From Chitinophagaceae bacterium (GTDB taxonomy: Bacteria > Bacteroidota > Bacteroidia > Chitinophagales > Chitinophagaceae): a DNA stretch of 17,477 nt. The translations under genes and the position numbers were made by a program. Within the stretch, counting starts at the first letter, position 1, and each line of letters begins with the position of its first letter. Under the pieces are notes generated by a model. It did no database searches. It worked only from the letters and a program-made list of their open reading frames with translations, and was not told the origin of the DNA. Positions 2,903 through 17,477 of the stretch are shown in pieces. The stretch covers positions 1 through 17,477 of the forward strand of contig CANCKV010000009.1 of assembly GCA_947378615.1 (NCBI GenBank). The letters run 5' to 3'.

Positions 2903-3545
2903 AATATGAATGGAAAGTGTCAATTGAAACTTGAATTACGACAAAGGAGGTTTCACCACAAGGAAAACAAGGAAAAATCAAGGAGCACAAGGATTTCTAT
3001 TCAAATAATTTGTTATGAAGTATCAGAAATGTATTTTAGGCCTAGTGTCTCTACTAATAACTTCTTTTCAGAAAGTCGTTCCTAATGTTATGAAGTAGGA
3101 TTCCTCTGTGAACTTTTTTTATAAAATATGAAAAATCTATGCCCTTTCTATGTGCCTATGAACCTATGTGTTAAGCTTTTTCTTTTTTCTAAAACTTATT
3201 TAACTAGAAACATGAACTCCTTTATTTCACTCTTTGTGCAATCCTTGTGATCATTTTGGCGAAAATAGCTGAGTTATAACAATAGTTGGAATAAGTCGAA
3301 AGCAAACAAAAATCAACTGAATCTGTTATGAACTTGTCAAACATTTGGAAGCAACTAAAAATTAGTTGTTTTTGTCATTGTTTATTGTATTATTGCAAAC
3401 TTATTAAAGAGTATTAGCTACTTGATAATAACGGTTAACTAAAATTTATTAATGATTCATTTCTACGCTTAACTACATCAAACAGTTTATTCTTTTTCGA
3501 TTAGTAGTTTTCTCTTTTATTTGCAAACTAAATTTAATTATTCAG
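2903..3545. other. Gene-free stretch with short-period repeats (643 bp)
   Basis: No ORF of coding character was found. CAAGG occurs four times at 2959, 2968, 2979 and 2988 (spacing 9, 11, 9), and CTATG four times at 3137, 3148, 3156 and 3164 (spacing 11, 8, 8). The first series reads as CACAAGG-like units on the + strand, and the second as CATAGG-like units on the - strand. A further CCTTGTG lies near 3242-3250. GTTATGAAGTA appears twice, at 3012-3022 and 3087-3097. The last ~200 bp is AT-rich and should hold the porV promoter. Confidence 0.55.
3366..3395 (+). promoter_or_regulatory. Candidate Bacteroidota promoter for porV
   Basis: TTG at 3366-3368, a 19-bp spacer, and TATTATTG at 3388-3395 (one mismatch to TAnnTTTG). 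This would give a porV leader of about 145 nt. A closer TTTATTTG at 3516-3523 has no TTG at a suitable distance. In DNA this AT-rich chance matches are common, hence the low confidence. Confidence 0.28.
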
Positions 3546-4715: not shown

Positions 4716-4729
4716 GGGTGTAAGGTGTT

Positions 4730-4811
4730 AGGTGTAGGGTATTAGGTATAGGATATAAGCTTTAGCTTTCTTTTTTCTGAATATATTTCGAAAACCTTTA
4801 ACCCTACACCT
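4730..4811. repeat. Long-loop inverted repeat between porV and ispF
   Basis: AGGTGTAGGGT at 4730-4740 is repeated exactly inverted at 4801-4811 (ACCCTACACCT), with about 60 nt between. The flanks add partial pairing (GTAGGGTAT at 4734-4742 against ATACCCTAC at 4819-4827). The left arm is part of a run of degenerate GGTGTTAGGTGTAGGGTATTAGG-type short repeats that begins right after the porV stop. No T tract follows, so a terminator role is not supported. Confidence 0.6.
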
Positions 4812-5499: not shown

Positions 5500-6174
5500 T
5501 TAATTATTTGAGAAAACAAAATCAGTACCCACACTCAATGGGCTTACTGTTACAGTATTTCCCGCATAACAATATAAATAATAGATGATACCTGCCTTTA
5601 GGTTACTGAATCTTTTTATTCTTTGTTTGGAAAAGTTGTGAATAATTGTTGGATTCGTACCTTCTGGCAATACTAAAACGCCATCAATAAAAGTTGTTCC
5701 TTCGGGTAAAGCACCGCCAACAACTATAAACATGCCATAATATTCGGCTCCATTCACTCCGTGATACTCCATTTCCATTACACCTCCACCACATTTTTTT
5801 AACAGTTTTAAAATAGGTTGTAGTAGCGGATTTACACCGCCGCCTATCACATTATTTTCATGAAAGCCAGAGAAACCAATCATCTCAGAGGTGAGATTTG
5901 GTAAATGATTCACATAATCAAGCAAATCATCAAGCATTGTCAACAATACAGTATATGAGTTTTCATAAGCTGCCTTTAAACCCTTTCCTCCGTAAGAATA
6001 TTCAGAACTTGCCTTGTTATAGGCATCTACTGCTGCTGAAAATGCAGCTTTTGTTACAGGAGGGGTAACAAAAAGAAGAACGTACTGAAATAGCCCATTC
6101 AGTATTTGAATAATGAAAATAGCAAATAAATGCTTTTTGTAATAAGGATAATCCTTTAATGCGTAAACTTTCAT
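5500..6174 (-). CDS. Unrecognised protein, helical N-terminus and beta-rich C-terminus
   Basis: The 224-residue protein has no motif I can name with confidence. Residues 15-37 are hydrophobic but contain Gln and Asn, so neither a signal peptide nor a membrane anchor is clear. Residues 38-105 look helical (PPVTKAAFSAAVDAYNKA, LLTMLDDLLDYVNHL), then come SGFHENN and a Gly-rich loop. Residues 130-224 alternate like beta-strands and end in a segment resembling a fibronectin type III strand pair (AGIIYYLYCYAGNTVTVSPL). Bacteroidota genomes contain many small proteins with this plan, a helical domain reading PPV...AVDAY...G plus an FN3-like tail, of unknown function; my link to them is from memory of the pattern. 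It is transcribed alone, convergent with ispF, with its own strong terminator. Confidence 0.75.
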   Translation of the reverse strand: MKVYALKDYPYYKKHLFAIFIIQILNGLFQYVLLFVTPPVTKAAFSAAVDAYNKASSEYSYGGKGLKAAYENSYTVLLTMLDDLLDYVNHLPNLTSEMIGFSGFHENNVIGGGVNPLLQPILKLLKKCGGGVMEMEYHGVNGAEYYGMFIVVGGALPEGTTFIDGVLVLPEGTNPTIIHNFSKQRIKRFSNLKAGIIYYLYCYAGNTVTVSPLSVGTDFVFSNN

Positions 6175-6586
6175 AACTTAAATTTTTAATTGTAAGAACA
6201 TATTTTGTTATAAACAATAATTTTTGAAATTAGATTTTACATTTATTTATTTTATAGAAATAAATACAGTTTAGATAGATTGAATTAAACATATATGTTC
6301 GACTACTAGTGGTTGTGCCATTGGGTTTCAGCCATTTTGGTAAAGCCAAAAAGAAGCAGAAAAAAATTTATAATATTTTTTAAAATCTTAAATTATTTTC
6401 AAAAAAGTGATATAAATCCTATTTACAAGCTAAAAAATAAATATGATTTTGAAATTTGTGATAAATATCATCAACTAATAATCCATGATATGGGTTTTGA
6501 TAGAAGGTAACAAAGTGTTAGATTTTAGTACCAATTGAAGTGGTTTGTTAAAGAAGGAACGCATGTTCCAAATCAAGGCTTTGGCA

Positions 6587-6838
6587 CTTGACATGTAGAT
6601 TTCATCCCTTGACATGAAGATTTGTGGACTTGACATGTCAAGTAGCTAATTCAAGATGTTTGGAGGACAAAAAATCTTGTCAAAACACCTACTCGACATG
6701 TCAAGCAAAAAAGTTGACATGTCAAGTAACAAATTAGACATGTTCGAAGAACAACTTTTCTTGTCAGGGGCTCAACTCTTCATGTCAAGTACCAAAACCT
6801 TCATGTCAAGTGCACAATTCTTGATTCTTTGAGGAAAA
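6587..6838. repeat. 21-bp-period array, 12 units with palindromic core TTGACATGTCAA
   Basis: Twelve consecutive 21-bp registers run without a single insertion or deletion. The core CATG, or a one- to three-base variant, falls at 6592, 6613, 6634, 6655 (GATG), 6676 (CTTG), 6697, 6718, 6739, 6760 (CTTG), 6781, 6802 and 6823 (GATT). The consensus unit is CTTGACATGTCAAG followed by about seven A-rich bases. The unit at 6628-6643 contains a perfect 16-bp palindrome, ACTTGACATGTCAAGT. Units at the left keep the left half-site and those at the right keep the right half-site (CATGTCAAG). The strict 21-bp step equals seven codons or two helical turns. Confidence 0.93.
6656..6832 (+). CDS. Possible 58-residue heptad-repeat peptide inside the 21-bp array
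   Basis: Because the array steps by 21 bp, one frame stays in register and reads as eight heptads: MFGGQKI, LSKHLLD, MSSKKVD, MSSNKLD, MFEEQLF, LSGAQLF, MSSTKTF, MSSAQFL. Met or Leu is always first, Ser is common second and third, and hydrophobic residues recur at position six or seven. The frame is interrupted upstream by stops at 6596-6598 and 6647-6649, so only the right two thirds of the array is open. It may be a real small protein, a decayed longer one, or a by-product of non-coding repeats. No promoter or ribosome site supports translation. Confidence 0.22.
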   Translation: MFGGQKILSKHLLDMSSKKVDMSSNKLDMFEEQLFLSGAQLFMSSTKTFMSSAQFLIL

Positions 6839-6987
6839 TTGTGAAGATTTTACCCACTTACGCACGTCAAATCAGGGTATCAATGCCGCAAATCGAGACT
6901 TAGGCATATTGGGTCTTAAACAAGTACCGTTACTAAATTTCGAATTGATACATACTCCTTGAATTTGAGAATAATGAACAAACGGCA

Positions 6988-7002
6988 CATGACTGAGTCA
7001 TG
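6988..7002. repeat. Interrupted palindrome CATGACT-G-AGTCATG
   Basis: Perfect 7-bp arms flank one central base, about 115 bp upstream of the start at 7119. A dimeric regulator could bind here, but no other evidence supports this. Confidence 0.35.
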
Positions 7003-7118
7003 CGCTAGTGGTTGAATCTAAAATGAATTAATAAAATATTTTGTATAATATTGTAAACTTATTATTCAAAATATGATTCACCTTTCACCTTACTATTTCT
7101 TTTAAAAAAACAATTTTC

Positions 7119-9266
7119 ATGTACAAGTTTATCCTAATTGCTGCTTTTATTGTCTTTGTTATTTCTGTTTCTGCACAAACTACCACTGCCGAAGAATATG
7201 ATTATCTCACAAGAGATTTCAAAAAGGATATGGCTAATGGGAAAAAGTTTCGAAAAGGATATGAACTTGACTCAATAAATGAAGTTTATCTTTCTAAAAG
7301 TTATGCCTATATCAAGAGATTCTATAAAATGGAGAGAAACAACAAAAGGAAAGTAGCTTATCTGATTGCCTATAAAAGTCCGATAGCAGATACTGAATAT
7401 TTCTGTTATCCTAATCCCTACTCTTTCGACGGATTTGTTCTTATGTATGTAAATCAGGTTTACCTGCATAATCCAAAAGACACTATAAGGCTGCAATGTA
7501 TCGACTCATTGACTTCTAAGCTAATCTATAGTTTTGATAATATAGCACAAATGAAATCGGAAGGGACAAATACTGATACGACTCAACCACAATTTATGGG
7601 TGGGGATAGAGGTTGGAATTTATACCTTCAAACTTCTGTTATTCATGATATTAAAGCAGCACCGTTGGGATTTTATAAAGTAAATGCGACTTATACTATC
7701 AATGAAAATGGGGAAATAACTGACGTTAAAGCACTTAATAGCCCTGGATTTGGAATGTCAGAAAATTTGGTGAATCTAATCAAGAAAAGTCCTGTTTGGA
7801 TACCTGCAACGTTTAACGGGAGGGGAATTAAATATAAAGGGTATGTAACTAAAACCTTTAGGGGTATTTTATCTAATGCTCACATTTTAGATAGCGTTAT
7901 CCATAGTAAGTGGAAACCACAAAATTATGATTCTTTATCTCCTCAAAAGCAATGGCAAACTTTTGTAATGAGAAATCTTGATGCTTCTATTCCATATAAG
8001 AATGGCGCACCTGCTGGAAAATACAAAGTCGATCTTTCTTTCTTTGTTAATGAGGATGGAAGTATTTCTGACGTAACAGCTGACAATGACCCTGGTTATG
8101 GCGCAAAAGAAGAATGTTTGAGAATGATGAAATACGCACCAAAAAAATCTCCCATATTAGTTAATGGTGTGGCTACAAGAGTTAAGGAAAATAAATCAAT
8201 TGTATTCGATGTTTCGGAAGAATCTACTCATAACAAAGATTATGAAAGGATATATACAAATGTGGAGGTTGAACCAACGTTTCCGGGTGGAAGCGACGCA
8301 TGGCATAAATATCTAGAAAAAAATCTGAATACTTCTATACCCACTAATAAGGGTGCTCCTCCAGGAAAATATACGGTGAATCTTAACTTTACTGTGTCGG
8401 CAGATGGAACCTTAAAAGATATTAATGCAAACCGTTCACCTTATGGAACAAGTGAAGAGGCATACCGGGTATTAAAAGCTGTACCACATTGGATTCCTGC
8501 AAAACTAGAGGGTAAAGATGTTGCGTATCGGACTAAAGAGGAAATCACATTTATTGTTCCTGAGGAAGAAAAAATTTTAAATGAGGATACAATCGTTGAC
8601 AAAGAACCTGAATTCCCAGGTGGACGTTGGGCATGGTCAACGTATCTATCTAAGAATTTGAATAGTAATGTACTTAAGGCAAATGGGGCTCCTGTGAGTT
8701 TGTACGATGTTGAATTATATTTTTTGGTTGATAAGGACGGCAGTATTAAATACGTACATGCGGATCCTTATTGTTATTATGGAACAGCTGAAGAAGCAAT
8801 TAGGGTATTAAAAAGTGGTCCAAAATGGATACCTGCGGTTAAAAATGGACAAAATGTTGCGAATAGAGTAGAAAAGACTATTCGATTTTATGTAGAAGCC
8901 GAAAGTCCTATAAAGAATACATTTAATCAAATTAATATCATGCAACAAGATGCTCATTTTCCTGGAGGATCTTATGCCTGGAAATATTATGTTGAGCGGA
9001 ACATAAAGAAAAACTTATCAAAAGAATATGGAGCAGCTCCAGGAATTTATACAGTAATGGTTTCGTTGTTGGTTGATAAGGAGGGTAATATTAATGATGT
9101 GAAAGCAGACCCTGCGCCTTATGGAATTGAGGCTGAAGCAATCAGGTTGATAAGCGAGGGACCTAACTGGATACCTGCCAAACAAAATAATAAAAATGTT
9201 GCTTCTAAGGTAAAGCTGTCTTTAACATTAATTATTAATGAGAATCATGGGTCGAAAGTACCCTAG
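7119..9266 (+). CDS. Secreted or periplasmic protein with five TonB-C-like domains
   Basis: The 715-residue protein opens with a signal peptide (hydrophobic 4-18, cleavage probably VSA-Q at 19/20) and has no later membrane segment. Residues 20-150 are a unique N-terminal region. Five tandem copies of a ~95-residue domain follow at about 157-249, 273-366, 385-481, 497-593 and 611-707. Each reads roughly as FPGG..AW..YL..NL, then GAP.G.Y.V...F.V..DG.I.DV.A, then YG..EEA.R.LK..P.WIPA..NG. That is the TonB C-terminal fold pattern common in Bacteroidota proteins. Copies 3-5 are the best kept; copy 2 has lost FPGG and WIPA. True TonB proteins have an N-terminal transmembrane anchor and one such domain, so this is not an energy-transducing TonB. 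A scaffold or cell-envelope binding role is a guess. It is transcribed alone. Confidence 0.82.
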   Translation: MYKFILIAAFIVFVISVSAQTTTAEEYDYLTRDFKKDMANGKKFRKGYELDSINEVYLSKSYAYIKRFYKMERNNKRKVAYLIAYKSPIADTEYFCYPNPYSFDGFVLMYVNQVYLHNPKDTIRLQCIDSLTSKLIYSFDNIAQMKSEGTNTDTTQPQFMGGDRGWNLYLQTSVIHDIKAAPLGFYKVNATYTINENGEITDVKALNSPGFGMSENLVNLIKKSPVWIPATFNGRGIKYKGYVTKTFRGILSNAHILDSVIHSKWKPQNYDSLSPQKQWQTFVMRNLDASIPYKNGAPAGKYKVDLSFFVNEDGSISDVTADNDPGYGAKEECLRMMKYAPKKSPILVNGVATRVKENKSIVFDVSEESTHNKDYERIYTNVEVEPTFPGGSDAWHKYLEKNLNTSIPTNKGAPPGKYTVNLNFTVSADGTLKDINANRSPYGTSEEAYRVLKAVPHWIPAKLEGKDVAYRTKEEITFIVPEEEKILNEDTIVDKEPEFPGGRWAWSTYLSKNLNSNVLKANGAPVSLYDVELYFLVDKDGSIKYVHADPYCYYGTAEEAIRVLKSGPKWIPAVKNGQNVANRVEKTIRFYVEAESPIKNTFNQINIMQQDAHFPGGSYAWKYYVERNIKKNLSKEYGAAPGIYTVMVSLLVDKEGNINDVKADPAPYGIEAEAIRLISEGPNWIPAKQNNKNVASKVKLSLTLIINENHGSKVP

Positions 9267-17168: not shown

Positions 17169-17326
17169 CAAGTCTATTATTTGCCACAAGTCAATGACTT
17201 GCGGAAGCGAGGCCCTAATTTCACTAGCGGTAGCGGGGGATATTTTGCAAGTCCATTATTTGCCACAAGTCAATGACTTGCTGCAGCAAGACCCTAATTT
17301 CACGAGTGGTAGTGGGGGATATTTTG
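17169..17326. repeat. 79-bp tandem duplication, two copies
   Basis: Copies 17169-17247 and 17248-17326 match at 71 of 79 positions with no gaps. Each contains the interrupted palindrome CAAGTCA-A-TGACTTG (17187-17201 and 17266-17280) and ends GGGGGATATTTTG. The start of a third copy is lost after a few bases at 17327. As 79 is not a multiple of three, the same peptide pattern (YLPQVNDL then PNFTSGSGGYFA) appears in two different frames. Confidence 0.9.
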
Positions 17327-17343
17327 CAAAGGGTCTTTTGCAG

Positions 17344-17477
17344 AGCACTTCAGGCAGAGCAGAATCCACATCGAGGAGAGCAGAATGCACATCGTGGAGA
17401 GCGGGGAACGGTTAGGGGAGGCTACATTGGTCTCAAGGGATGTCGGGAAGCACTTCGAGGTGAGTGTTAAGCACTTA
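17344..17477. repeat. Second 21-bp-period array, cut by window edge
   Basis: Units start at 17344, 17365, 17386, 17407, 17428, 17449 and 17470, all exactly 21 bp apart. AGCACTT opens units 1, 6 and 7; CACATCG and GAGAGC are shared by units 2 and 3, with GCAGAA ending units 1 and 2. Units 4 and 5 are strongly diverged but keep length. In one frame the array reads as heptads starting with Gly or Ala and ending in Arg or Lys (AEQNPHR, GEQNAHR, GERGTVR, GGYIGLK, GCREALR). Confidence 0.82.

Follow-up and report, generated by a model that had tools for sequence, protein, structure and literature searches.

CRISPR-Cas, REP-RAYT and iteron-Rep partnerships depend on a common repeat sequence. CRISPR arrays combine a constant repeat with variable spacers and are accompanied by cas genes, and the iterons of plasmid origins are repeats of about two helical turns beside the gene of a Rep protein.

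Several intergenic repeats of bacterial chromosomes have also been described. BrickBuilt of Porphyromonas gingivalis is a minisatellite/MITE of tandem 23-bp units without spacers, found at many intergenic loci, for which the part of the report cited here gives promoter activity and one single repeat sequence, bounded by leader and tail ends (PMC4596501). REP/BIME elements, which go with the RAYT tyrosine transposase, are tagged extragenic palindromes located, in the cited part of that report, mainly downstream of genes (PMC3733652). TAACTGA heptamers, as far as the cited part of their description goes, occur in Beggiatoaceae, Cyanobacteria and some Bacteroidetes, in intergenic regions and often upstream of start codons (PMC4679880).

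Here we analyse an array of 21-bp units in a Chitinophagaceae bacterium. The window, meaning the whole 17,477-nucleotide stretch analysed, spans one entire contig; the draft genome that it belongs to is fragmented (3.66 Mb in 590 contigs, 68% complete). Like CRISPR arrays, the arrays described below join regular repeats and variable sequence to an adjoining protein gene, but they lack a constant repeat with variable spacers; a CRISPR was rejected, given that conserved and variable columns intermingle throughout the 21-bp unit of the window array (unit table) and that PADLOC gives no match for the partner protein. Like iterons, they are repeats of about two turns adjoining a protein gene; unlike iterons, they are presumably chromosomal, many per genome, contain dyads and come with no Rep domain that we could find. 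A scan of ten window proteins showed none, and an iteron origin was rejected.

With BrickBuilt, as described in the cited text, they share tandem intergenic units at many loci of a Bacteroidota genome, whereas their sequences mostly differ by locus, shared ends were not observed and they go with a protein family (PMC4596501). The cited part of the REP/BIME report offers a likeness in extragenic palindromes of similar size, some tied to a protein gene, but the present arrays differ by locus, are tandem-phased and mostly occupy gaps upstream of genes (PMC3733652); REP/BIME with RAYT was rejected, there being no shared palindrome and no transposase match (Pfam) for the partner protein. The TAACTGA repeats are likewise many intergenic arrays in overlapping phyla, and some genomes of the present sample also contain 7-bp arrays; theirs, however, is a fixed 7-bp sequence, with no protein family found in the cited part of the report (PMC4679880), and they were rejected as the window unit is 21 bp long and lacks TAACTGA. 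In the open-licence PMC literature, we found no description of two-turn or 21-bp arrays that go with a protein family.

The window array

A first-pass annotation had placed a strict 21-bp array of a palindrome at 6587-6838, in a 944-bp gap separating divergent genes. The array is real, with 12 consecutive units and no phase slip (Table 1), and the gap stands as described (6175-7118). By autocorrelation, the array matches itself at 0.567 at lag 21 and at 0.46-0.57 at multiples of 21 (0.565 at 84), other lags giving about 0.18-0.35, and its combined 21-bp score of 0.517 is the window maximum for periods 12-59, with 0.383 at most in 20 window shuffles. Tandem Repeats Finder called just two fragments of it, 6584-6637 and 6695-6743. 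The palindrome is looser than had been proposed: its phase is kept, but the perfect form TTGACATGTCAA occurs in only two of the 12 units, with a one-mismatch copy in a third, and the CATG core said to recur every 21 bp is itself present in 8.

Further order lies above the single unit. A four-unit (84-bp) super-period, absent from the first-pass annotation, makes units 4, 8 and 12 alike and units 5 and 9 alike, and an array-wide imperfect inverted repeat accounts for the earlier observation that left-hand units keep the left half of the palindrome and right-hand units the right half. The dyad score of the unit profile reached p 0.002 against 1000 column shuffles.

Table 1. Coordinates of features in and around the window array.
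Feature	Position	Strand	Basis
Array of 12 phased 21-bp units, partial dyads around CATG	6585..6836		Autocorrelation, unit table
Perfect palindrome TTGACATGTCAA, unit 3	6630..6641		
Palindrome with one mismatch, unit 6	6693..6704		
Perfect palindrome TTGACATGTCAA, unit 7	6714..6725		
Inverted repeat, left arm	6571..6643	+	Reverse-strand self-match to 6754-6826, 74%
Inverted repeat, right arm	6754..6826	-	Reverse-strand self-match
Partner gene, 224-aa protein (helical N-terminal half, beta-rich C-terminal half)	5500..6174	-	Family linked to upstream arrays
410 bp separating array from partner gene, putatively holding promoter and leader	6175..6584	-	Coordinates only

Other repeats were seen. A segment a little to the right of the array (6852-6894) matches contig C133 of the same genome at 3252-3294 (81%), and C133 also bears a 42-bp array at 2206-2457. 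The contig end of the window carries 79-bp and 21-bp tandem repeats (17169-17329 and 17356-17402).

Within the 68% of the genome that was recovered, the window motif is confined to its locus, other near-matches not exceeding a reversed control, and BLAST with the window array against 58 relatives gave no match. A paired-motif pattern had one or two scattered matches in 14 of the 146 others among 147 genomes of the bacterial family, and one match each in 4 of the 394 others among 395 genomes of the phylum; one of these four, locus L202 in genome G338, is a 21-bp array with another motif. An exact scan of genome contigs for paired palindromes returned, among the matches listed, mostly unrelated pairs, and yielded L086, L088, L098 and L111. 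At least 37 pattern loci (in L064-L182), with largely actinobacterial titles, have GACATGTCAA pairs at 29-bp spacing, perhaps another regulatory site. On the viral contigs L194 (5300-5460) and L195 (2057-2147), GACATGTC palindromes follow one another about every 16 bp, unlike the 21-bp arrays.

Array census in the genus

A sequence-independent scan for multi-lag periodicity detected 75 arrays in 1,071,377 bases sampled from 13 genomes of the genus, none in block-shuffled sequence of the own genome, and, across 760,000 bases from 19 genomes of other genera of the bacterial family, a single one of 15 bp. Directly observed periods in the genus were 21 (38 arrays), 42 (18), 41 (5), 20 (3), 22 (1), 44 (1) and 14 (9), placing 66 of the 75 at 20-22 or 41-44 bp. 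The sampled stretches are non-random: the window and the own contigs L254-L256 were included on the strength of arrays already known or flagged in them (leaving them out, this genome still has 21 arrays on 17 contigs), and stretches of congeners and of genome G426 were chosen partly by protein matches. Extrapolated from the density in these non-randomly sampled stretches, a genome would hold some 200-300 arrays.

The first-pass annotation had offered either two helical turns or seven codons as the meaning of the spacing, and helical turns fit better, because the genus periods include 20, 22, 41 and 44, which are not divisible by 3. Decayed coding sequence with a seven-residue repeat (LDMSSxx) was suggested by one plus-strand frame of the window array that gives LDM-SS heptads; this best frame contains two stops, however, its open part (6650-6832) has no homologue by protein search, and the four periods just named would shift the frame in sister arrays. 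We rejected a coding heptad repeat and regard its decayed counterpart as highly improbable. No 150-codon open frame runs across the array in 70 of the 75 genus arrays.

Most arrays are unlike one another in sequence, though some motifs recur: in a set of 85, the 99.9% null was exceeded by 15 of 721 pairs within a genome and by 13 of 2849 pairs between genomes. A BrickBuilt-type MITE was rejected on this ground (28 of 3570 pairs overall), no single repeat being shared and the window array being unique by BLAST.

Symmetry and position were also observed directly. Dyads in the consensus unit are enriched, with p ≤ 0.05 in 24 of 63 arrays and p ≤ 0.01 in 12, and with p ≤ 0.05 in 7 of the 13 arrays of the profile-found set, window counted in; the 39 of 63 without a significant dyad weigh against the repeat-plus-protein module proposed in the Discussion. 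The 63 arrays fall in 26 divergent, 26 tandem and 4 convergent gaps, 5 called ORFs and 2 ends, the examined contigs offering 89 divergent, 385 tandem and 90 convergent gaps as defined by a simple ORF caller; therefore, most arrays lie upstream of some gene. The window array had been put forward as a control or structural site. Its position upstream of a gene is confirmed and found again at other loci, but one palindrome acting as a lone control site is not supported; the same architecture recurs many times with other sequences.

Degenerate 7-bp (14-bp) arrays co-occur with 21-bp arrays in these genomes and make up 8 of 25 arrays in the own genome. Such sites lie at 4717-4756 in the window, at 7962-8115 and 11113-11294 in L237, at 1-182 in L239, at about 5734 in L111 and at about 2728 in L088.

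The partner protein and its linkage to arrays

In a large protein collection, the 224-aa protein encoded left of the array has seven homologues, itself included; searches of Pfam, NCBIfam, PHROGs, PADLOC and PDB gave nothing significant. Its family has expanded within the genus, with members in 10 of 13 genomes; no match was found in 26 other genomes searched, and none of the viral contigs searched encodes a member. The structural model of member P0008, based on 29 sequences (pLDDT 89.9, pTM 0.50), is confident in its parts and consists of helices at residues 8-98 followed by a beta-sandwich at 117-214; the model of the window protein has the same element order at low confidence (pLDDT 60). 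Helical plus beta-sandwich proteins of such look are, we presume, common and unnamed in several phyla. The near-neutral halves of the family protein and its lack of a recognised DNA-binding domain argue against a module in which it assembles on DNA.

Within the genus, an array lies at most 900 bp upstream of 16 of 21 family genes, namely those with enough upstream sequence, compared with 93 of 768 other genes (p 7e-11). Under a stricter array definition and a limit of 700 bp, the counts were 15 of 24 and 68 of 759 (p 4e-10). In the 700-bp test, 68 of the 89 upstream-array calls belong to other genes; that many arrays have no adjoining family gene counts against the module. A count of 6/7 in this test is biased, the six seeds of A2 (a profile built on array-linked proteins of greater distance) having been chosen for standing next to arrays or for kinship with proteins that do. 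In the own genome, arrays stand at 5 of 9 genes found by profile A2, one of them weak. The linkage between arrays and family, itself a direct observation, is well supported.

On the other side of the array, the gene at 7119-9266 encodes a 715-aa protein with TonB_C-type repeats, relatives of which occur in 13 of 13 genus genomes. A tie between the array and this TonB_C-like gene was rejected, with an array at 1 of 19 loci with relatives and 1 of 8 in samples; the sole such locus is L046 in genome G006, where the TonB_C motif missed the gene and another search puts it.

A second genus family, of 319 aa, is encoded at L240 3472-4431 (without Pfam match), L244 562-1521 and L265 18021-18980, with 42-bp arrays upstream in 3 of 3 sampled members.

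Arrays and family outside the genus

Profiles A2 and A4, the latter built from out-of-genus matches, were run on whole genomes and the upstream DNA was inspected afterwards. Out-of-genus family genes had an upstream array in 12 of 20 cases, with periods 21 (eleven) and 43 (one), the 20 being drawn from about 28 such genes, with eight places in G562, G572 and G364 left out. By genome, the counts were 3/4 in G426, 5/7 in G332, 1/1 in G032, 0/1 in G557, 1/2 in G562 (Phycisphaerales, Planctomycetota), 1/2 in G572 (Hormoscilla, a cyanobacterium) and 1/3 in G573 (uncultured Bacteroidetes), so that the linkage spans Bacteroidota, Planctomycetota and a cyanobacterium. Genomes G562, G572 and G573 were reached via an array-like pattern and contribute 3 of 7, the remaining genes 9 of 13. 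An array was called at a score of 0.55 and a period of at least 20, which made L377 (0.522) and L375 and L379 (0.504) misses; the call at L376 depends on a short stretch, and L088 had passed as an array by score ahead of the family search, its close reading coming only afterwards. In control tiles of 1.1 kb, arrays were present in 0 of 685 from other genera of the bacterial family and in 9 of 324 from G426. The 8 of 20 genes without an array count against the module.

Among sampled and searched genomes, arrays of period 20-44 occur in 12 of 12 carriers of the protein family (G000-G004, G006-G008, G010-G012 and G426, with G012 counted as a carrier on one 78-codon fragment) and in 0 of 21 non-carriers, including the congeners G005 and G009 (58 kb sampled). 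This near-absence from sampled family-free genomes was observed directly and is a strong hint that arrays are confined to carriers, in genomes that are related and mostly sampled in small amounts. The rule is probably not strict, given that G338, outside that sample, has the 21-bp array L202 (score 0.82) and a doubtful family match (E 6e-4). Twenty genomes were reached via pattern-scan loci; among the matches listed, three carry the family. A 21-bp array by score was present at 5 of the 20 loci, namely L086, L088 and L111 of the carriers plus L155 and L116. The last two occupy coding-like frames in genomes without the family and speak against the module; the family is absent from the remaining 15 genomes.

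A rival reading is a neutral origin, in which minisatellites would arise by a lineage-specific mutational process, e.g. hairpin slippage, and be linked to the family indirectly via shared long, fast-changing gaps. Such a process would not be expected to give unrelated lineages a sharp period close to two and four turns, to leave the window array without a single phase slip at about 50% unit divergence, or to link arrays with one protein family across phyla, although it sits well with variable unit numbers, sequences that differ between loci, arrays that are common in long gaps and rare between convergent genes, and the presence of 7-bp arrays in the same genomes. We hold it to be rather unlikely.

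Apparent constraint on pitch and symmetry

At one orthologous locus amid conserved genes, with flanks 82-88% identical, G001 has 3 units and G007 has 8 units of the same array, a directly observed change in whole units; in G004 the array has diverged while its complementary arms are kept, and G012 has no array. Loss of unit phase in relatives had been named in the first-pass annotation as a refuting outcome; phase is kept among relatives while sequence and unit number are not. The earlier proposal of a constraint on spacing is supported. Two G007 paralogues 87% identical in protein sequence have unrelated arrays, and therefore pitch and symmetry, rather than sequence, look constrained.

Sequence-specific operator arrays, where each protein would bind its own palindrome before its own gene and specificities would have co-diversified, find some agreement in the dyads, the two-turn spacing and the upstream position, in the recurrence of motifs within a genome noted above, and in a weak correlation between protein identity and array similarity across 24 modules (rho 0.19, Mantel p 0.006). 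The G007 paralogues tell against them, as do another pair, 64% identical, with dissimilar arrays and a window motif without a second site in the recovered genome, and we consider such operators rather unlikely.

Folded as single-stranded RNA, the window array reaches -93.5 kcal/mol on the minus strand, the sense strand of the partner gene (z -7.6), and -83.9 kcal/mol on the plus strand (z -7.1). The order of its units contributes nothing significant to folding, as a fraction of 0.275 of 40 permutations did equally well (plus strand). Self-complementarity is general, with a median z of -4.5 over 87 arrays against mononucleotide shuffles, and in 19 of them the order of units itself makes folding more favourable (p ≤ 0.05). 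These values would suit an RNA element, transcribed arrays acting as a hairpin string or as one long hairpin in the gene leader. However, stability shows no preference for the sense strand (19/35, p 0.74), G-T mismatches do not significantly exceed A-C mismatches (97 to 76, p 0.13), and no Rfam family was found at its gathering score, the window matches being microRNA families far below theirs; an RNA element is improbable. Because neither stability nor mismatches show a strand bias, we read the arrays as a DNA feature.

Discussion

The reading we favour, with a confidence a little short of even, is that the arrays belong to an undescribed repeat-plus-protein module, in which an array on two-turn-phased DNA would lie upstream of the gene of a protein of about 220 aa. 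Such a module would comprise tandem partial dyads at two-helical-turn phase together with a gene whose product is helical in its N-terminal half and forms a beta-sandwich in its C-terminal half. The dyads may be presented on one face of the helix every 21 bp as an assembly surface, on which a factor tolerant of sequence would assemble, either the family protein or one travelling with it, and most likely the family protein itself.

In this module, arrays would gain and lose whole units and may serve as upstream regulatory or architectural platforms, and a factor acting in trans might explain arrays without an adjoining family gene. From sequence, we infer that the pitch would be read by a protein, that this reader could be the family protein, and that the expression of the next gene may be what is controlled. 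It is conceivable, if unlikely, that superfamily proteins go as far as building and maintaining the arrays by a two-turn ruler, in any upstream sequence, leaving locus-specific, barcode-like arrays in at least three phyla.

Taken together, the arrays and the family point to an undescribed genetic system. Geometry is common to the loci and sequence is not, and the arrays track one protein family across Bacteroidota, a planctomycete and a cyanobacterium. This linkage provides a first lead on a family unnamed in all libraries searched and a possible explanation for unexplained intergenic repeats in carrier-type genomes, and it raises the testable question of whether anything in such cells reads or builds DNA at two-turn pitch.
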